A stretch of DNA of 64,000 nt. Origin: Fulvivirga ligni. Lineage in GTDB: Bacteria > Bacteroidota > Bacteroidia > Cytophagales > Cyclobacteriaceae. Below are positions 52,115 through 61,928 of this stretch, piece after piece (within the stretch, counting starts at the first letter, position 1; each line of letters starts with the position of its first letter). The translations under genes were made by a program, and so were the position numbers. The notes under the pieces are model-generated. The model was given only the letters and a program-made list of their open reading frames with translations, ran no database searches and was not told the DNA's origin. The stretch spans positions 4,445,001-4,509,000 of the forward strand of contig NZ_CP089979.1 in assembly GCF_021389935.1 (NCBI RefSeq), given 5' to 3'.

Positions 52115-53161
52115 TCACTTGAAAGTTACTGGCAGTGAATACTGTCTATCATTCTCTGCCAGGCCCGATGGGTTTGCTTTCTGAAAGACAATAGATCCCT
52201 TTTGCCCGGCCGGCTGATCATATTCAATAGTCATTTCAAAAGAAACCCAGCCTTTTGTCATCCAATCTCCTTTAGCAGCTACAGGCTTTTGAAGCAAAAC
52301 CTTTAAGTTGTCATTTTTAAGCTGTACCGGAAAACTACCTTCATTAAACCAATAGCCTCTCGCCTTTCCTTTGATAGTGACAGGAGACGTAATCTTTTCA
52401 TCTGGCTTAGGAGATTCTATTCTTATCAACTGATCTATATCAACTCTTTTATCTCTTTTCCCAAAGAAGTAAAAAGATTGCAAGGCATGCTTGAATATCT
52501 TGGCATCATCCCCTCTAACCTTTCCATATCTGCTTAACTTATCACCACTGGCCAGGCTGCACTCCTCTAATGGCTTAGGTTTACCCTCAGCATCGAAGCA
52601 TCTGGCACTAAAATCATCTACTCCGAGGTGAATAAATATAAAACCATCTTTATTCCAGCCTACCGGAGGATTTTCAGGCTTTAACAAATAAGCCCAAACC
52701 TGCCCGTCATTCAATGTATAAACCATAGAAGCTGCTTCGTCAATTTTAAAATCAGAAGCCAGGCTATTAGTCCACTCTTGTAAGCTCAACTTGGTGCCTA
52801 AAGGATCAGGCTTATGATTTCCTTGTGGATGAATGGACATGAAAGATATCTCAGGATGCTCTACGATATCAAACGGAGGAGTAGAAACTCGCTCATAGGC
52901 AGTATTGTAAACGTTAATTACAGGTGCACCTTGTGTAGTCTTAAACTCTGCCACTTTCCAGCCTTCAGGGTAAGGCATATCAAAATGAAAGTCTTTGGAA
53001 GAAAATGTATTCCAGCTAACTTCTGAAATATCTAATAATGAAGCATTGTTAGCCGAAGCGTATTTGGTAGTAGGTATGTTGGTTTCATTGGCATTATCTG
53101 GTTTGCTGCACCTCCATACCACCAGTAATGCTGCAATAGATAATAGTATAAGCTTTTTCAT
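52115..53161 (-). CDS. Lipoprotein with C-terminal Gmad2-like immunoglobulin domain
   Basis: 348 residues. The signal ends at VVWRCSKPDN, a lipobox-like site with Cys18 though with Arg before it. The N-terminal two-thirds contain FHFDMPYPEGWKVAEF and a VNVYN strand with no named family. The C-terminal about 105 residues (IRIESPKPDEKITSPVTIKGKARG, then WFNEGSFPVQL and GDWMTKGWVSFEM) match the Gmad2 domain of bacterial surface proteins, also seen next to spore-germination or protease-like domains. Function unknown; probably surface-exposed. Confidence 0.78.
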   Translation of the reverse strand: MKKLILLSIAALLVVWRCSKPDNANETNIPTTKYASANNASLLDISEVSWNTFSSKDFHFDMPYPEGWKVAEFKTTQGAPVINVYNTAYERVSTPPFDIVEHPEISFMSIHPQGNHKPDPLGTKLSLQEWTNSLASDFKIDEAASMVYTLNDGQVWAYLLKPENPPVGWNKDGFIFIHLGVDDFSARCFDAEGKPKPLEECSLASGDKLSRYGKVRGDDAKIFKHALQSFYFFGKRDKRVDIDQLIRIESPKPDEKITSPVTIKGKARGYWFNEGSFPVQLKNDNLKVLLQKPVAAKGDWMTKGWVSFEMTIEYDQPAGQKGSIVFQKANPSGLAENDRQYSLPVTFK

Positions 53162-53376
53162 AAACGCCCTGTATTTATGTGTGTAATTATATGCACATAG
53201 CTGTGGCGAAGAATAGCTTATTGTTAGTTCGTTTTAAGTTTAAGTTTAGGTTGAATAAACTTTTCTTATTCCTATAACTCCTCTAAGTGATTATTAAGGC
53301 ACTTTTTTCACCAAATCAATCGCACAGCGTACTGTTTGATAAAAAAAGATGCACATATTATACCATCTGGTTAGTT

Positions 53377-54501
53377 CTAAAACCTTTTAGAAAAATAGGC
53401 TATAGTTAAACCCAGGAATGTTAACAAAATGAATGATACTCTTAAACTGGAAGCACCTGCAATTAATCCGATTAATGGCGGCCCCAATAGAAAGCCTAGA
53501 AAGCCAAAAGTAGACACTGAGGCCAGGGCAATACCAGGGGACAATTGCTTAGACTTGCCCGCCAAACTATACACCAACGGTATCACGGAAGACACTCCCA
53601 TTCCCACGATCAATAGGCCTATCATGGTAGGAATAAAAATAGGAAAGACCACTATTAGCAATAAGCCCACCGCTGTAAAAGCACCACTTAACTGCAGCAT
53701 GGTTTTCATGCCAAGATGATGAGTAAGCTTATCTGCTAAAAGTCGCGTTCCGGCCATAGTTACCATGAAGGCGGTATATCCCAGACCTACCCAATCCTGA
53801 TCTACTTTCACCACTTTTTTAAGGTACACACCGCTCCAGTCGAACATTGCTCCTTCGCTCATCATAGAGCAAAAAGCAATGAGCCCCAAAACCAACAGCG
53901 ACTTCTCCGGCCAGGCGAACATGGGCTGTGCACCTTCAGTTTTAGCATCCTCATTAAGGAGAAACCGATAACTGAATAATAAAATGGGCAAAGCAATAGC
54001 ATAAACCACCATATAATGGTATTTGGGTGTTATACTCTCGGCTATCATGTAAGCGCCTATTCCCGCTCCGGCAAAGCCTGCAAGACTCCACATACCATGA
54101 AATGTTGCCAAAATATTCCTTTTGTAAATTGCCTCCAACCCCACGGCCTGGGTGTTAATGGATATATTGATCATGTTACCCACCAAACCAAAAAGGAATA
54201 ACACCGGGACCAGGACCAGCAAGCTTTCAGAAAAGCCGATACCCAAGAGAGCCAGCGTATAAATCAAAGAAGAGAATATAACCACCTTCTTACTGCCAAT
54301 TTTTGCTACTAAAAAGCCAGATATTGGCAGCGATAATAAGGACCCAATGGGTAAAGCGAATAGAACAATTCCCAGAGCAGATTCCGATAGTTGCAATGAC
54401 TGCTGAATACTGGGAATACGAGCAGCCCAGCTGGCAAAACAAAGACCGTAACTAAAGAATACTGCACCTATGCCTATCCTTGATTTTTGAATGTTTGTCA
54501 C
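53377..54501 (-). CDS. MFS transporter
   Basis: 374 residues, about 11-12 transmembrane segments. Opening SRIGIGAVFFSYGLCFASWAARIPSIQQSLQLSESALGIVLFALPIGSLLSLP and the GFLVAKIGSKKVVIFSS loop (variant of the MFS motif A) are the standard N-terminal bundle of the sugar/fucose-permease-like or drug-exporter families. The substrate is not evident. It starts at the stop of the nucleotidase gene (54501, overlapping by one base), so the pair is coupled. Nucleosides or nucleotide breakdown products are a possible cargo (inference). Confidence 0.88.
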   Translation of the reverse strand: MTNIQKSRIGIGAVFFSYGLCFASWAARIPSIQQSLQLSESALGIVLFALPIGSLLSLPISGFLVAKIGSKKVVIFSSLIYTLALLGIGFSESLLVLVPVLFLFGLVGNMINISINTQAVGLEAIYKRNILATFHGMWSLAGFAGAGIGAYMIAESITPKYHYMVVYAIALPILLFSYRFLLNEDAKTEGAQPMFAWPEKSLLVLGLIAFCSMMSEGAMFDWSGVYLKKVVKVDQDWVGLGYTAFMVTMAGTRLLADKLTHHLGMKTMLQLSGAFTAVGLLLIVVFPIFIPTMIGLLIVGMGVSSVIPLVYSLAGKSKQLSPGIALASVSTFGFLGFLLGPPLIGLIAGASSLRVSFILLTFLGLTIAYFSKRF

Positions 54502-55049
54502 TATATTTCGCAGTTTGCATATAAGTAATCGTAAGCCTCTTTCCAGTTGTTTACTCTTACATCATAGTCTATTTTTGTATTGTGTCCGGCGGTAAAAAGC
54601 ATGCCCCTACCTTTGCAGAAGTTAAGATTTTTCATGTGATCGTCGATCATAAAATCGGTGTCAATGATACTCTTATCTCCACATAAAACAATGTTCTTCC
54701 AGCTAATAAATGGAAAGTGCTCATCTAGCCATTCTTTCTTTTCAATCAGCGATTGAGGAAACTCCATGGCAGCAGATACTATATAAACCTCGAAGTCTTC
54801 ACAAAGCTGTTTCACAGTTTCCACCGCACCCTCAATTACGGGCGCTGTTCTGAAGAATCCCGGCATATATAAAAACTCTCTCACCTTCGATTTATCAGGA
54901 AAAGCCTCACCTTCAGGCACTCCGTTGAGTTTCTCCATTTCTATGCGGACGCCATGCTTGTCAGCATACCAGTCTACCATTTGCTTTTCTATGTGTGCCA
55001 AGACATGATCCATGTCAATAGCTATCGATAGTTTGCCGTTTTTTGCCAT
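54501..55049 (-). CDS. 5'(3')-deoxyribonucleotidase-like HAD hydrolase
   Basis: 182 residues of the HAD superfamily. The first motif is IAIDMDHVLAH with Asp12 and Asp14 (the usual Gly after DxD is His15); the later YIVSAAM gives the Ser motif II, and TDFMIDDH the acidic motif IV. The NT5C family dephosphorylates (deoxy)ribonucleoside monophosphates. Length fits the family. It is translationally coupled to the MFS transporter. A DeoR-like regulator lies divergently, now broken by a frameshift. Confidence 0.85.
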   Translation of the reverse strand: MAKNGKLSIAIDMDHVLAHIEKQMVDWYADKHGVRIEMEKLNGVPEGEAFPDKSKVREFLYMPGFFRTAPVIEGAVETVKQLCEDFEVYIVSAAMEFPQSLIEKKEWLDEHFPFISWKNIVLCGDKSIIDTDFMIDDHMKNLNFCKGRGMLFTAGHNTKIDYDVRVNNWKEAYDYLYANCEI

Positions 55050-55133
55050 AATTTTTCAATATTATGCTACAAAGCTAAATAAAAATTGCATAATATTGCA
55101 TTATCAAATTATTAATTCGGCAAAAAACTGCAA

Positions 55134-55881
55134 ATGCTTAAAGAAGAACGCTTTCAATACATTCTGGACGAGCTTAGTAAAAACAACAAAGTATTGCTAG
55201 ATAAGCTTAGTGATGAACTTAATGTATCCATAGACACCATAAGAAGGGACATTAAAGAGCTGGATACTCAGGGATTACTGAAAGCAGTAAGAGGTGGAGC
55301 CGTGCCCCACTCTCCCAACCCCCTGAATTTTATGGACCGGCTTGACTATGATTCAGAAGCTAAGCAGATTATTGCCAACAAAGCACTTTCCCTTTTTCAC
55401 GATGGCCAAACCGTGATTTTTGATGGTGGTACTTCTACCCTGGCCATTGCTAATTTGCTACCCAAAGAACTGAAATTGACTGTAGTAACCAACAGCTTCC
55501 CGAATTGCTAACCTCCTAAAGGAAAACGAACATGTGGACATTCTTTTTGCCGGAGGCAGATTATTTAAAAGCTCTTTTGTAACTGTAGGATATGACAGCA
55601 CTGCCTTCTTTAAGAACATAAGGGCCGATCTATGTTTTCTGGGAATATGCAGTCTTCACACCACCCTGGGCGTAACGTCTCCCGACTATGAGGAAAGTAA
55701 AGTAAAGGCCGTAATGACACAGGCCTCCCAACACACCATAGCTCTGGCCACCCCAAAAAAGCTCGACACAGTGGAGCCTTACCTGGTCTGCACAGCAGCA
55801 GATATAGGCACCATTATCACCAGCGATGATAGCGATAAAAAGCTGAAGCCCTTTAGAGAGATGGGGATTGAGGTTTTGTGA
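55134..55881 (+). pseudogene. DeoR-family transcriptional regulator, broken by a one-base insertion
   Basis: The first part (55134-55511) has the DeoR HTH (LLDKLSDELNVSIDTIRRDIKELDTQGLLKAVRGGAVPH) and start of the sensor domain; the frame ends at VVTNSFPNC. The +1 frame continues from about 55501 as IANLLKENEHVDILFAGGRLFKSSF, the normal sequel, to 55881. One extra base in the run CCGAATTGCT (55500-55509) explains it: removing one A restores SFPIANLL. The sensor domain would bind a sugar phosphate. Whether this is a true mutation or a sequencing error cannot be told here. It is divergent from the nucleotidase/MFS pair it may control. Confidence 0.88.
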
Positions 55882-55996
55882 ATTTCTCAGTCATTGTCGT
55901 TATTTTTTCTTAGAATTATTAAATTGCAAGAATGAATGATCCACGCTGCACTAGCGTATAGCGGCTGGAGCGCGTATAAGATAATGATAAATAACT

Positions 55997-57955
55997 ATGT
56001 TGGTTGGGATATTTATAAGACACTATAAAGTATATAAAGGGGCTAACTATATTCCTTTTGGAACAAATGATATTGAAAATTTTAATCTATTTATTGGTCA
56101 TAATGGAGCTGGAAAAAGTTCAATATTAGAAGCTTTAGATACATTTTTTAATGGAAGAGAATTCACAGTTAACAATGGAGCCAAAAGAGATCAGTGTTTT
56201 GTTGCACCTTTATTTTTAATTAAGAAAGATGAATTAAATAATTACTCTAAATCCGCTCAGGAAATAATTCCAATTATAAGTGAATTCTTCTTCGAATTTA
56301 GTTCCAGTCACAGAAACTATAAGAATTACGAACAATTTTTCACCCAAAGAAATAATTTAACCCCCTACATGGATACACATTATTTGATTTTGGCTGGTAA
56401 ATCACTAGGTCAAAACGATAATGATATGATCACCTTTTCAAACGAACTTGAAACCAAGTTAAAGAATACTTTGGGAGATGACTATAAAATAAAGCGTTCT
56501 CTCAATACCTTGAAGCAAGACTTGCTTAGTAATTATACATACATCTATATTCCAGTAGAGACCTCAATTCAAGACTTTTTAAGACTTGAAGCTAAAGGTA
56601 TGCAGGATCTTATGAGCCAAAGCATTCGACACAAAATTGAAGAAACTCTTAATAAAAAATTCAGCACGAAATCGGTCAATTCCAAAAGGACACGAAAACT
56701 CAATGCCTTAGATATTATTAATGATGACTTAGAGTTTTTTATAGAAAAGGTTGAGAAAACAATTCAAAATATAGATGCAGATTATGACTTCCAATTAGAA
56801 TTTAAATCAAAGAAGAAACTGACAGCAAATCATTTAACGGATGTTATTATTGATTCATTCTTTTCGAAAAGAAGACTTAGAAAAAGTGAGAAAGTAATTA
56901 GCAGCCTTTCTGCCGGAGAACGAAAAAAGGCACTAATCGATATAGCATACTCATTTTTAACACAGGACGATCAAAGAAAAAACAATATTATACTAGCGAT
57001 TGATGAACCTGAATCTTCATTACATATTTCTATGTGTTATGACCAGTTTGAGAGGCTCCAGAATTTGAGTTCAAACTATCATCATCAACTTTTGATAACT
57101 ACTCACTGGTATGGCTCTTTGCCTATTTTGGAAAAAGGTAATCTATTTCATATTCACAATAATCAAGACTTAGCACCTATCATTAAAGAATTCTCTTTTA
57201 AAAATTATTTCGAGGAAAGACGTGAGCATCCTGAGGATATTCAGTTTAAAAGTTTTTTTGATTTAGCATCAGCAATTATAAGCTCTATGAGAACCTCTTC
57301 AAATAACTGGATCATTGTTGAAAGTGAAGAGGACAAAGATTATCTAAAAAAGTATCTTTCATGCAACTTCAATGTAAAAATTTTACCAGTTGGTGGCTGT
57401 ACTATTGTTAAATTACTATATGAATATCTTTACTTACCTATAAGTCAAAAGTCTGATTCAAAAGATTTAACAGGTAAGATTTTCTGCCTAATAGATACGG
57501 ACCTTCAAGGAATTACTATGGAGATACCTGAGGAATCCAAAAACGGGATTTTAAAAATAAGGCGGCTACAAGTTAATAATCATGGTGAAGTTGATTTAGT
57601 TAGAATTAATGACAATATAAGTTCTCCAACCGAGATTGAAGAAGCACTAGAACCACAACGATTCTATAATGCTCTTGATGAACTCATTAAATTAGAAGAT
57701 ACAGACAGTTTAATACACAATACTTGGCAGTTATTCGCATTTGATCCTGGTGTAAAATCAAGTTTCATCAAAGGGGATAGTTCAATAATTTATCAAACAA
57801 CACAGAATAACAAAACTACTAGAGAAAATAAGATTATAATCATTGACTATATTGAGTCTAACAAAAAGCTTATTTGTAAGAAATATTGCTCTTTGGAAAC
57901 CCAAGTAACTCCCGGCTGGATTAAAGAAATTGAACAGTTTTTTATGAAAGCTTAA
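55997..57955 (+). CDS. ABC-ATPase/TOPRIM fusion of the OLD or PARIS (AriA-AriB) class, putative phage defence
   Basis: 652 residues, one chain. The N-terminal ATPase has Walker A GHNGAGKS (34-41), the signature LSAGERKK (304-311), Walker B LAIDEPESS (Asp336, Glu337) and an H-loop in LLITTHWYG. The C-terminal third shows a TOPRIM-like order: Glu442 in IVESEEDKDYL, a Gly-rich VGGCT turn, and Asp500/Asp502 in CLIDTDLQG. The design matches OLD-family nucleases and fused forms of PARIS; no GajB-like helicase is adjacent, so classic Gabija is unlikely. The DNA is visibly more A/T-rich than its neighbours. The gene lies alone between a broken regulator and a Gfo/Idh gene. Confidence 0.8.
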   Translation: MLVGIFIRHYKVYKGANYIPFGTNDIENFNLFIGHNGAGKSSILEALDTFFNGREFTVNNGAKRDQCFVAPLFLIKKDELNNYSKSAQEIIPIISEFFFEFSSSHRNYKNYEQFFTQRNNLTPYMDTHYLILAGKSLGQNDNDMITFSNELETKLKNTLGDDYKIKRSLNTLKQDLLSNYTYIYIPVETSIQDFLRLEAKGMQDLMSQSIRHKIEETLNKKFSTKSVNSKRTRKLNALDIINDDLEFFIEKVEKTIQNIDADYDFQLEFKSKKKLTANHLTDVIIDSFFSKRRLRKSEKVISSLSAGERKKALIDIAYSFLTQDDQRKNNIILAIDEPESSLHISMCYDQFERLQNLSSNYHHQLLITTHWYGSLPILEKGNLFHIHNNQDLAPIIKEFSFKNYFEERREHPEDIQFKSFFDLASAIISSMRTSSNNWIIVESEEDKDYLKKYLSCNFNVKILPVGGCTIVKLLYEYLYLPISQKSDSKDLTGKIFCLIDTDLQGITMEIPEESKNGILKIRRLQVNNHGEVDLVRINDNISSPTEIEEALEPQRFYNALDELIKLEDTDSLIHNTWQLFAFDPGVKSSFIKGDSSIIYQTTQNNKTTRENKIIIIDYIESNKKLICKKYCSLETQVTPGWIKEIEQFFMKA

Positions 57956-57957
57956 AA

Positions 57958-59400
57958 TCAAAGCTTCCACCCTTCTCTATAATCTCTTTTCACAAATTGA
58001 TTCACCTCTTTAATGTTAGTGACTTCCATTTTTTCAGCGTCCCAGAGCATTTTTATATTCCTGCCTGGATAGTCAAATCTATTGTTTCCTTTATCAACTC
58101 TTACATCAACACCCCTGATGGCCAGGTTGGCGATTAGTAAAGTCTCTGTTAATGGTCCTGCAATTTCGAATGGTGAGCTCAACTCTTTCTTTCCATAACC
58201 TGCAATAGATGCTTCCACCCACTGCGCATAGTGACCATTTGCGCCTCCACTGACTCTTTCATATTTCTTGGCTACTTTCTCCTGCTCAGTTCGGGATAAA
58301 GGCAATAACTGAGGGTTCGTTCCATAAGTACCGCACATCATCTTGCCTTTAGTGCCAATGAAAAGTACACCATTGCCACCATCTCCAAAAGTCTCATTAG
58401 CTCCCAGTTCTTCTGGCCTGGTGGGTTGTATACCTCCGTCCATCCAGTGTAGCTCTACATCGCCTTGTGTCTTATCTGTTTTAGGAAAAGTCATGGTAAC
58501 ATGGCTTGAAGGAGGACAGCTTTCTGGAAAATAGCCTCTCTTAAAACCATCAACATATACGCTACCCACACTACATTGCACATCTTTAGGATATTTCAGA
58601 TTCAGAACCCTATATGGCGCTTCTACCAGGTGGCATCCCATATCACCAAGCGCTCCGGTTCCATAATCCCACCATCCTCGCCAGTTGAATGGCGCCAGTC
58701 CATCAATGTACTCTTTGTAAGGAGCAGTTCCCAGCCATAGATCCCAATCTAATTCTTTAGGCACAGCACTGGTTTTTGTAGGCCAGGGAATTCCCTGTGG
58801 CCACACGGGCCTGTCCGTCCAGCAATACACCGTATGCACATCTCCTAATACGCCGGCATCAAACCACTCCCTCAACATTCGAACACCATCACCTGATGCG
58901 CCCTGGTTTCCCATTTGAGCCACTACTTTATACTTCTTAGCACCTTCCGCCAGCCTTCGGGCTTCATAGATGTCATGGGTCAATGGCTTTTGAACGTAAA
59001 CGTGTTTCCCCATTTCCATGGCAGCCATAGTGGGAGAAGCGTGGTTGTGATCTGGAGTAGAAACCGATACGGCATCGAAAGACTTCCCTTCCTTTTCAAA
59101 CATCTCCCTCCAATCTTTATAATATTTAGCTTTAGGGAAACGTGACCTGGATGTAGCAGCTCTACGGTCATCCACATCACATAAAAAGCCTATTTCAGCC
59201 TTCCCTGAATCGGCAAAACTTTTGATATCACTCTCCCCTTTTCCACCTACTCCTACTCCGGCTATTATAAGCTTATCACTAGGTGCCGTATAGCCCGGCC
59301 CACCCAGCACGTGGCGTGGCACAATAGTTACCGCCAGAGCAGCAGCTGAGGCTTTCTTAATAAAATCTCTTCGTTGATTAGAATGGTCTAGGTTCTTCAT
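57958..59400 (-). CDS. Gfo/Idh/MocA family oxidoreductase, exported
   Basis: 480 residues with a Tat signal (NQRRDFIKKASAAALAV). Rossmann motif IIAGVGVGGKGESD at about 45-58, the KHVYVQKPLTHD strand with the catalytic Lys in QKPL (the more usual E replaced by Q), and GTGALGDMGCHLVEAPYRVL, the catalytic Asp/His region of the family. The long form with a WxGxxPxxEYI-like substrate region is common in Bacteroidota glycan metabolism, and several such enzymes act on glycoside or acetamido sugars. It is convergent with the ATPase-TOPRIM gene and is not obviously in an operon. Confidence 0.88.
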   Translation of the reverse strand: MKNLDHSNQRRDFIKKASAAALAVTIVPRHVLGGPGYTAPSDKLIIAGVGVGGKGESDIKSFADSGKAEIGFLCDVDDRRAATSRSRFPKAKYYKDWREMFEKEGKSFDAVSVSTPDHNHASPTMAAMEMGKHVYVQKPLTHDIYEARRLAEGAKKYKVVAQMGNQGASGDGVRMLREWFDAGVLGDVHTVYCWTDRPVWPQGIPWPTKTSAVPKELDWDLWLGTAPYKEYIDGLAPFNWRGWWDYGTGALGDMGCHLVEAPYRVLNLKYPKDVQCSVGSVYVDGFKRGYFPESCPPSSHVTMTFPKTDKTQGDVELHWMDGGIQPTRPEELGANETFGDGGNGVLFIGTKGKMMCGTYGTNPQLLPLSRTEQEKVAKKYERVSGGANGHYAQWVEASIAGYGKKELSSPFEIAGPLTETLLIANLAIRGVDVRVDKGNNRFDYPGRNIKMLWDAEKMEVTNIKEVNQFVKRDYREGWKL

Positions 59401-59628
59401 GTTGGTATATTTTGTTAAGTAGTAGCGTAATCACCGATAGCGGCACAGCAGAGGAATGCTCACTGCTAAAACGGTTAAGTTAAATTAAGTAAAATGATTG
59501 AAGAATTCGAATTTTGAATATGATTTCTGATTTAGCATATATACAATACCAACTTTGAATATTCTTTTCTAGATTTAAAATATGGCATCTACCTATAACC
59601 TTATACCACGGTTTGACATAGCAAGAGC

Positions 59629-60339
59629 ATGACCCTCAATGACGAATGCAAACTTTTAAACTTTTGCGACTCATGTAAGCAGAAGAAATGCATCAACGGA
59701 AATACTGTATGCTCATTAACAGAGCAAAAACCATCATTTTTAAATAACTGTGAGCATTATGTATTTGATGATAAAATCATATCTGTAAAAAATAAGTTAG
59801 AAATTAAATATAGAGAACATAAACACTATAAACTCATCAACCTATTTGGAAACGTGTATAACACATCCCTCAAAAATGCCCCTTATGAAACCTTACATTT
59901 CAGGCCAATATTTATATTATTAGCGGTTGGTGTTGTACTGCTGCCTTTGGCATTTTTAGGTTATCTGACCATTGTATCAAATCAAAATTTTCAATTATCC
60001 TGGCTACTCCTTCCTATCTTATCAATAGCTCTGTTTTTCATGACAAAAAAAGAATTAAAAAATAAGGCTAATGAACAAGTGAATAAACACGGCTTAGTCT
60101 ATAATGGTAAAATCTATCTATGGAGGTTTATAGACGGCCTTTATTTGAGACTAGATGACCATGATGATGATTCAGTAAAAGAAGATTTACTTATTGTTAT
60201 GCGTTCTGGTAAAGTATTCAGCCACTCTATGTATCATATTAATTATCTTTCAAAAAGAAGACTTAAGAGAATAATCAATTACTATCGACACCTAAATAGA
60301 ATAGAAAATCCACCCCAGGAAATAACACTTCATCACTAA
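59629..60339 (+). CDS. Membrane protein with N-terminal Cys cluster, unknown
   Basis: 236 residues. The first 45 residues contain Cys7, 13, 16, 21, 28 and 41 in CxxC-type spacing (CDSCKQKKCINGNTVC), likely a zinc-binding knuckle in the cytoplasm. Two transmembrane segments at about 95-118 and 124-142 follow, then a cytoplasmic tail (WRFIDGLYLRLDDHDDD, SKRRLKRIINYYRHLNRI) with a PH-like or bundle character. I know no family. The next gene starts 75 bases downstream on the same strand and is also a membrane protein; they may form a complex. Confidence 0.6.
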   Translation: MTLNDECKLLNFCDSCKQKKCINGNTVCSLTEQKPSFLNNCEHYVFDDKIISVKNKLEIKYREHKHYKLINLFGNVYNTSLKNAPYETLHFRPIFILLAVGVVLLPLAFLGYLTIVSNQNFQLSWLLLPILSIALFFMTKKELKNKANEQVNKHGLVYNGKIYLWRFIDGLYLRLDDHDDDSVKEDLLIVMRSGKVFSHSMYHINYLSKRRLKRIINYYRHLNRIENPPQEITLHH

Positions 60340-60413
60340 AAGCCTCCTCTCCCATTCATTGTCTTGCCAATCTTATAAATTTTAAGAATTTTGTATAAAG
60401 GGATTTTTCAGAA

Positions 60414-61928
60414 ATGGGACTTAGCAAAGGTTTTTTGATCAATAAAAAACGTATTGAAACGAGGTATGTTTATTTGGGCTTAACCTTATGGATGTTCTCA
60501 GCTTATGTTATTTACGCATTTATTAAATTGTTTTGGGAAGCATTCCGGTACTTCACCGTATTAAACACGTACTTAGTACTCTCTCCTACTGACCACTACA
60601 TTTATAATTTATTCTATGCGGCCATGTCCTCTGCCTTCGGATTCTCAATAGCCCTGAGATTTGTTCTAAAAAATTCGCTATTGACCAGTAACAGAAGCAC
60701 TAAGTTCCTTATTAAAAGAACGTTAACTTACAATGCGTTTAACACTGAACAATTTCTATTTTGGTTTGGTAAAGTCAGTACCTTATTTGGCTTTTGTTAT
60801 ATGATGTTTTCGTTAGTCTATGATCTTGATTTGATCAAGGACTTTCCGGCCGTACTCATTCTTCTTCCGCTTATGCTTTTTATGTCTTCATGGCCCCAAA
60901 TTAGCCGACTGTTAAAACATCAAAAAACATTATGGTTTGTGCGATTAGCAAGTGTATTTCTATTGATAAGCTTCTTATTTTCCTTTAAGGATTTTATTGA
61001 CTATAAGAAAATGGATCATGCGGTGTTGAATGCATCTATTGAGCATGTGTTTAACCTAAACCTTCCAAAAACACAAAGCCATCAAACATTTATAAATAGA
61101 ACATACCCAATAGAAATTTATATCGTAAAGGATACTACTAACTCAACTCCTGCCATATTTATCAGCGACATTCACAGCAGATACAACATAAATAATCTTA
61201 ATAAGGGAATAAAGAAAGAGCTGGCAAATCACTATTCATCTCACATGAATGATGCTACAGTGAAATTACTTGTTGATGATTCCGTACCTATGAAGTATGT
61301 AAATGAGGTTATTCATACCTGTCATTTGCTCAATATTAATTCCATCTTATTTTTCACGGGCAGAAAATATTCTAAATACCCGACCAATTATCCAGGTTTT
61401 GAAAATTATGGTATACTAAAAACAATGCCAGTGTACTATTCAGACTTTACCCATTTCCTTGACTCGGCAGAACAATTAGATTTTTCGGGAAAAGCTATAA
61501 AACTAAATGAATCTATATTTTACAGACAGCAAAACATAAAACAATATAATCGAATCGAAATTAATGTTAAGCCTAACTCGGTTACATTGAATAAGCAAAA
61601 GATAAAACCTCCTGAACTTGAAGCAATCATTTATAAATTTTACAAAAAATATTCACCCGATTGTGTAGTCATTTTTAACAGTGCTGATGATGTTTCTTAT
61701 GCGCGCTATATTCAATTTTTAGATATGATCTATACACAGATTGACCGCTTAAGAAATGAGGAATCTGAAAAATTTTATCACCACCCATTTCAGAATGATC
61801 AATGGGATTCGGGTTTCCATCAGATAGTAGCCAAATATCCCAGAAATATAATAGAGTGGACTGAAGAAGAAAAAAGACTGAACAAACTAATTCAGAAGGC
61901 ACACGATAACAATCAAGAACAAAAATAA
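60414..61928 (+). CDS. Polytopic membrane protein with two ExbD-like periplasmic domains, unknown
   Basis: 504 residues. Five hydrophobic segments (about 18-40, 62-84, 113-135, 142-160 and 173-194) form the first part. The soluble part holds two similar halves: about 225-312, ending ATVKLLVDDSVPMKYVNEVIHTCHLLNINSILFFTG, and about 382-445, with RIEINVKPNSVTLNKQKI and VVIFNSADDVSYARYIQFLDMI. Both have the strand-helix pattern V-x-I-x-x-D-x-x-V-x-Y-x-x-V of ExbD/TolR periplasmic domains. ExbD itself has one domain and one TM. Function unknown; a force-transducing role would be speculation. Confidence 0.55.
   Translation: MGLSKGFLINKKRIETRYVYLGLTLWMFSAYVIYAFIKLFWEAFRYFTVLNTYLVLSPTDHYIYNLFYAAMSSAFGFSIALRFVLKNSLLTSNRSTKFLIKRTLTYNAFNTEQFLFWFGKVSTLFGFCYMMFSLVYDLDLIKDFPAVLILLPLMLFMSSWPQISRLLKHQKTLWFVRLASVFLLISFLFSFKDFIDYKKMDHAVLNASIEHVFNLNLPKTQSHQTFINRTYPIEIYIVKDTTNSTPAIFISDIHSRYNINNLNKGIKKELANHYSSHMNDATVKLLVDDSVPMKYVNEVIHTCHLLNINSILFFTGRKYSKYPTNYPGFENYGILKTMPVYYSDFTHFLDSAEQLDFSGKAIKLNESIFYRQQNIKQYNRIEINVKPNSVTLNKQKIKPPELEAIIYKFYKKYSPDCVVIFNSADDVSYARYIQFLDMIYTQIDRLRNEESEKFYHHPFQNDQWDSGFHQIVAKYPRNIIEWTEEEKRLNKLIQKAHDNNQEQK

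Follow-up and report, generated by a model that had tools for sequence, protein, structure and literature searches.

The 64,000-nucleotide stretch of Fulvivirga ligni DNA analysed here, referred to as the window, carries on its forward strand at 55997..57955 an open frame with an ATG start that encodes a 652-aa ABC-ATPase/TOPRIM protein of the OLD family. The ORF is present in single copy in its genome, a single contig of 6.5 Mb, and is flanked by a DeoR-like gene and a Gfo/Idh oxidoreductase. Its GC content is 0.309, and its GC3 of 0.263 is the minimum among the 48 window ORFs of at least 150 aa (median 0.387, sd 0.057), which bears out an initial sequence-only reading that the gene is richer in A/T than its surroundings. 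That reading was also right that no helicase, antitoxin or tRNA gene adjoins the ORF in the window.

The N-terminal half is an SMC/Rad50-type ABC ATPase, matched by Pfam AAA_15 over residues 6-370 at E 5.7e-22. Conservation was followed in two family alignments with partly different sequences, A1 (11 rows, leaving out L012, a shorter near-copy of L011) and A2 (20 rows, leaving out L024, a near-copy of L023, and L027, whose broken frame gives two ORFs). The ATPase motifs and TOPRIM-like E...DxD first noticed in the single chain are present and conserved, even in relatives at only about 30% identity to the window protein. Walker A, GHNGAGKS (residues 34-41, 56096..56119), keeps N36, G37, G39, K40 and S41 in all 19 A2 rows long enough to include it; the remaining row, L008, begins further on. 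The ABC signature LSAGERKK (304-311, 56906..56929) keeps S305, G307 and E308 in 20/20 A2 rows, as does the Walker B/D-loop DEPESS (336-341, 57002..57019) its D336 and E337. The H-loop lies in an invariant HWYG (H370, W371, Y372 and G373; 57104..57115), seen in all 20 rows of A2 and all 11 of A1. The inserted helical region within the ATPase probably serves dimerization. NCBIfam gave only matches far under the cut-off, and phmmer of the window protein alone against solved structures found nothing but SMC1A at E 0.85.

The C-terminal half is a predicted TOPRIM domain in which the two-metal nuclease site looks complete. Its core spans residues 437-526 (57305..57574), as delimited by the secondary structure of an AlphaFold2 model and by the Pfam OLD-like_TOPRIM profile (PF20469) on the matching part of relatives. 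E442, G467, D500 and D502 are found in 20/20 A2 rows and 11/11 A1 rows, and E548 and K623 are likewise invariant in both alignments. The putative metal site begins with E442 and D446 (E-x3-D/E, 57320..57334), position 446 being D or E in every row, and continues with the DTD motif D500-T-D502 (57494..57502); the alignment places E442 and D500/D502 opposite the E and DCD of P2 Old. By alignment, E442/D446 would be equivalent to E400/E404 of Bp OLD, whose two-metal site is described as E400/E404, D455/D457, T506-x-E508 and K562 (PMC6755086). A probable metal-B motif, E546-I-E548 (57632..57640; E546 in 18 of 20 rows), would, from the order of the motifs, correspond to T506-x-E508 of Bp OLD and D541-x-E543 of P2 Old, and by the same reasoning from motif order, made without superposition, K623 (57863..57865) is a candidate catalytic lysine that may match Bp OLD K562 and P2 Old K550. 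In P2 Old, residues E398, E402, D453, D455, D541, E543 and K550 are each reported to be required to kill recBC hosts (PMC7049728).

The window protein's own TOPRIM half found no match in Pfam when E values up to 10 were allowed, so that the domain call rests on the family alignment, the relatives and the fold. OLD-like_TOPRIM matches 12 of the 20 full-length A2 members at E <=0.01 (best E 1.8e-6); on loci L020, L010, L018 and L025 it gives E 2.3e-7 to 8.3e-5, and on the closest relative, from Maribacter at 78% identity, E 0.1 only. DUF4435, the domain that defines PARIS, is absent from all 20 full-length members at E 0.01, from all 10 C-terminal halves at E 10 and from the whole genome at 1e-8. 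Among the profiles that the sequence-only reading had put forward, AAA_15 is thus found, the OLD TOPRIM is found in relatives but not in the window protein itself, and DUF4435 is missing. The most divergent row of the family is a 781-aa plasmid copy from Lactiplantibacillus (L011:10001-12346), which has an extra C-terminal stretch.

The structural model used is the alignment-based AlphaFold2 prediction on A2 (pLDDT 79.1, pTM 0.70); a single-sequence model of the window protein reached pLDDT 33. Strand 437-441, helix 444-454, strand 460-464, helix 468-483, strand 495-499 and strand 519-526 follow one another in the TOPRIM order, with E442 past the first strand and DTD past the third, and helices at 553-565, 572-577, 608-621 and 623-632 lie downstream of E548. 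A predicted structure lacking a TOPRIM fold would have told against the initial reading; the model has the TOPRIM order. The top Foldseek matches, the retron-Eco8 OLD protein (6.4e-14), GajA (2.5e-12) and Thermus OLD (2.5e-10), are all ATPase-TOPRIM proteins, and these full-length matches, with TM-scores of 0.30-0.35 and large rmsd, do not fix the arrangement of the domains. VIA-align 2 gave 9lpa_B at Z 18.3 (416 aligned, rmsd 17.5) and 6p74 at Z 15.8 (407 aligned, rmsd 13.8), values about equal to those of SMC heads that cover the ATPase only; its rows span chiefly residues 1-420, set against SMC/Rad50 heads, with TOPRIM-only relatives barely covered.

The gene order MFS-NT5C-DeoR to the left of the gene is kept in six sister genomes that have no OLD gene at the site, one contig (L052) ending at DeoR. 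In two of these sisters (G165 and G107) DeoR adjoins MurB with no insert, while three other sisters have a transporter between DeoR and MurB, two of the three also having a 760-aa protein. Here some 21.8 kb separate DeoR from the DUF1028-MurB-deaminase block, which puts the OLD gene at the left end of a variable, lineage-specific stretch of that length. The stretch extends from window position 55882 to a point roughly 13.7 kb beyond the end of the window (L087). The remaining genes of this stretch are metabolic-looking or of no recognised kind as judged by reading ORFs, and no further defence gene was recognised beside the OLD gene in this genome. Scans for promoters and terminators around the gene did no better than on shuffled sequence, and the repeats found around it are weak two-copy matches. 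Some 23 bases ahead of the start lies an odd GC-rich 20-mer that has no second copy in the genome and is hence neither a dispersed repeat nor an obvious attachment site.

Two other features of the neighbourhood may be recorded. The DeoR-type regulator at 55134-55881 lies in two frames, with its parts 31 nt apart as against 30 nt, in frame, in 6/6 sisters; either the gene is frameshifted or the sequence contains an error. Near the OLD gene, at 59629-61928, are two A/T-rich genes (GC 0.31 and 0.33), one without a Pfam match and the other, of 504 aa, with an ExbD-type match (7.3e-9).

The OLD gene was acquired horizontally from another lineage, as is evident from the disagreement between the identities of this protein and those of RpoB. 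The ATPase-TOPRIM protein is 78.1% identical to its Maribacter relative, against 71.6% for RpoB, and only 32.9% identical to the copy in the same-genus genome G165, against 96.9% for RpoB. When window positions 53001-61000 are compared with the Maribacter locus, the DNA match is confined to the OLD gene. With the own genome counted each time, the gene occurs in 2 of 15 genomes of the genus, 4 of 196 of the family and 2 of 395 of the phylum. Acquisition, as first supposed from sequence, is borne out both by this transfer and by the gene's absence from most relatives, and the outcome that would have spoken against it, conservation in all relatives with normal base composition, is the opposite of the pattern seen. 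No match to the OLD gene was found among the 50,697 records of the phages collection, and a scan of viral_contigs with the single protein gave nothing; the same scan with the alignment gave 17 loci. Relatives are also present on 16 plasmid records, 15 of them from Lactiplantibacillus.

The settings of these relatives are varied. P2-like prophages (L018-L034) carry the gene in at least three cargo positions. In L025, L031 and L033 it lies between replication gene A and portal gene Q, which is the old-tin position of P2, whose map has orf91-tin-old between gene A and the portal; in L030 it also adjoins the portal gene, yet the other flank is not gene A. In L022, L026, L028, L029, L032 and L034 the gene adjoins the repressor and/or the integrase, and in L020, L021 and L024 it stands ahead of a baseplate gene, with a like layout in L023 by ORF reading. 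On an Acinetobacter plasmid (L010) the relative is embedded in a BREX operon, with pglX on one side and pglZ on the other. In genome G335 (L016) the type I restriction genes hsdM-hsdS-hsdR are followed on the same strand by the OLD protein and a PDC-S68 helicase-like protein, hsdM and hsdS being assigned by ORF reading. A TIR-TM gene adjoins the relative at L007, methylase and HerA-like genes lie near the one in G166, and the G165 copy is found among what ORF reading suggests are transposon-like genes. At L005, L006 and L013 the relatives are solitary among ordinary neighbours, as in the window. No neighbour is common to the bacterial loci inspected. The family recurs in anti-phage niches, an observation made by inspecting loci one by one and not by a controlled enrichment test. 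In searches of open-licence PMC for the family at pglX-pglZ, in Bacteroidota and in P2-like hotspots, its name came up in no title or abstract.

A tree was built from 33 proteins, 18 of the family and 15 references (Thermus OLD not among them). The 18 family sequences group together (100/99), as do 11 P2-Old-like sequences (98/96); GajA, two proteins matching the retron I-B model and one ATPase-DUF4435 fusion belong to neither group. Very long branches for several of the references make their order among themselves unsure. By hhalign the family matches the Old group, given as an 11-row profile, at 99% (E 7e-19), and the single P2 Old sequence at 97%, an alignment that sets E442 and the DTD column against the E and DCD of P2 Old; the fused PARIS protein gives 88%, GajA 69% and the I-B proteins 48% and 66%, these being single sequences, so that the figures are not directly comparable with that for the Old profile.

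Set against the published OLD class scheme (PMC10568477), the family lacks the features by which Classes 2, 3 and 4 are defined, and is of Class 1 by gene layout, a single gene without a partner here and at L005 and L006, but is not grouped with P2 Old in the tree. Class 1 is also marked by a C-terminal region free of an inserted helical domain, with which the helices modelled after E548 may or may not agree. No UvrD/PcrA/Rep-like helicase, the mark of Class 2, adjoins the gene. As to the retrons of Class 3, no reverse transcriptase was seen among the Pfam-scanned neighbours or the ORFs read around the gene, and an Rfam scan of 54500-60500 gave no match. DUF4435, the mark of Class 4 (PARIS, including its fused form), is lacking. 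The best reading is that the window protein is a stand-alone OLD-family protein whose clade stands apart from P2 Old, GajA and the fused PARIS protein. The kind of protein is already known, and there is a modest chance that the family is a distinct class. OLD proteins are reported to include 11 uncharacterised clades, U1-U11 (PMC12796447).

With the Class 1 proteins P2 Old and Thermus scotoductus OLD, the window protein shares a single-gene layout, an ABC ATPase joined to a TOPRIM domain, the same E/DxD and a probable counterpart of the second metal motif, and some of its relatives occupy the P2 old position; unlike P2 Old, where 7 residues run from E543 to K550, it has about 75, partly helical, between E548 and K623. 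GajA, the Class 2 protein of Gabija, is likewise an ATPase-TOPRIM chain, matched in fold and with a probably equivalent T/E-x-E metal motif and distant lysine, but the window locus and L005-L007 have no UvrD-like helicase partner, and the hhalign match is weak. PARIS (AriA/AriB) supplies the sequence models closest to the ATPase half and, like the family, is found with BREX, whereas the window protein is one chain. The Class 3 retron-Eco8 OLD effector is the best full-length match in fold, though neither a reverse-transcriptase ORF nor an Rfam RNA was recognised near the window gene. IbfA/HEC-04, compared by description only, is another single-gene ATPase-TOPRIM defence protein, one whose activity against phage has been measured (PMC12111858), and has 518 aa against 652 aa here.

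Taken together, the protein is quite probably a self-contained member of the OLD family, with an SMC/Rad50-type ABC ATPase bearing an inserted helical region and a TOPRIM domain bearing a two-metal nuclease site, horizontally acquired and most likely serving phage defence without a dedicated partner gene. The OLD family couples an ABC ATPase to a TOPRIM nuclease. A role in anti-phage defence is suggested by this architecture and by the residence of relatives at sites in prophages and plasmids where anti-virus genes are known to occur. By analogy with P2 Old, GajA and PARIS, ATP-bound dimers would hold the nuclease in check until some sign of infection released it, most likely phage interference with the host's DNA-end processing (for instance RecBCD/AddAB) or with resident restriction or BREX systems; the released nuclease would then cut nucleic acid, DNA ends being the most probable target and tRNA a possible one. 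Everything in this scheme beyond an ATPase plus a two-metal nuclease site is reasoned from these analogues. P2 Old is described as killing recBC hosts and blocking lambda, which escapes by loss of its red functions, and Gabija as attacking DNA not acted on by RecBCD (PMC12407980, a preprint), while PARIS is reported to sense anti-restriction proteins (PMC9122126).

Other explanations deserve consideration. The sequence-only reading had allowed either a fused PARIS-like or a solo OLD-like effector, and of these the latter is upheld by the TOPRIM residues and the predicted fold. A fused PARIS protein, with the AriA ATPase and the AriB DUF4435 TOPRIM in one chain, would sense anti-restriction proteins and cleave tRNA. 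Such single-gene fusions are known (PMC9122126), AriA is closest to the ATPase half among PADLOC models (7.8e-25; 11/11 members) and among solved sequences (1.1e-7), and relatives lie inside BREX and type I restriction operons, as PARIS modules can. The AriA model behaves like the general AAA_15 model, though, and so is not specific, OLD-like_TOPRIM takes the place of DUF4435 in 12 of the 20 members, and the reference ATPase-DUF4435 fusion (L058) falls across the tree from the clade, albeit on a very long branch; we regard this explanation as quite improbable. The same BREX and type I operons could instead mean that the protein is a component inert by itself, its partner lying elsewhere or being the resident restriction/BREX system. 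A 2026 survey does report TOPRIM-linked OLD-ABC proteins inside BREX loci and describes OLD-ABC modules as backup effectors of BREX (PMC12839542), but the lack of a shared neighbour at the bacterial loci inspected, and the movement of the gene alone, with only the gene itself matching between Maribacter and the window, make such dependence unlikely.

OLD proteins are not always devoted to defence, the archaeal Cran1 being active in the cell cycle (PMC12796447). With that precedent, and an ABC domain that aligns with SMC/Rad50 heads, one might imagine an ATPase-nuclease that maintains chromosomal DNA, as RecF/Rad50 proteins do, or a cell-cycle protein, but this is very improbable for a gene so patchily distributed in genus, family and phylum, transferred between distant lineages and present in prophages and on plasmids. 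A bolder form of the stand-alone OLD reading would make the clade a kind of OLD defence protein in its own right, a single chain that watches over resident restriction/BREX machinery or DNA-end processing and achieves with an OLD-type nuclease what takes PARIS two polypeptides. The marks of the clade would be the HWYG after the H-loop, the complete OLD two-metal site, the long, partly helical C-terminal region and the lack of both helicase and DUF4435, and it may be one of the uncharacterised clades U1-U11; we consider this reading unlikely.

Even if the protein proves to be an ordinary OLD protein, it would still add a clade, one that none of the library models shown names as its own. Within a widespread defence family, the branch understood least is that of the single-gene OLD nucleases. 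A compact family found both at the P2 old position and on plasmids, as well as within a BREX and a type I restriction operon, offers a tractable set for tests of trigger and target.
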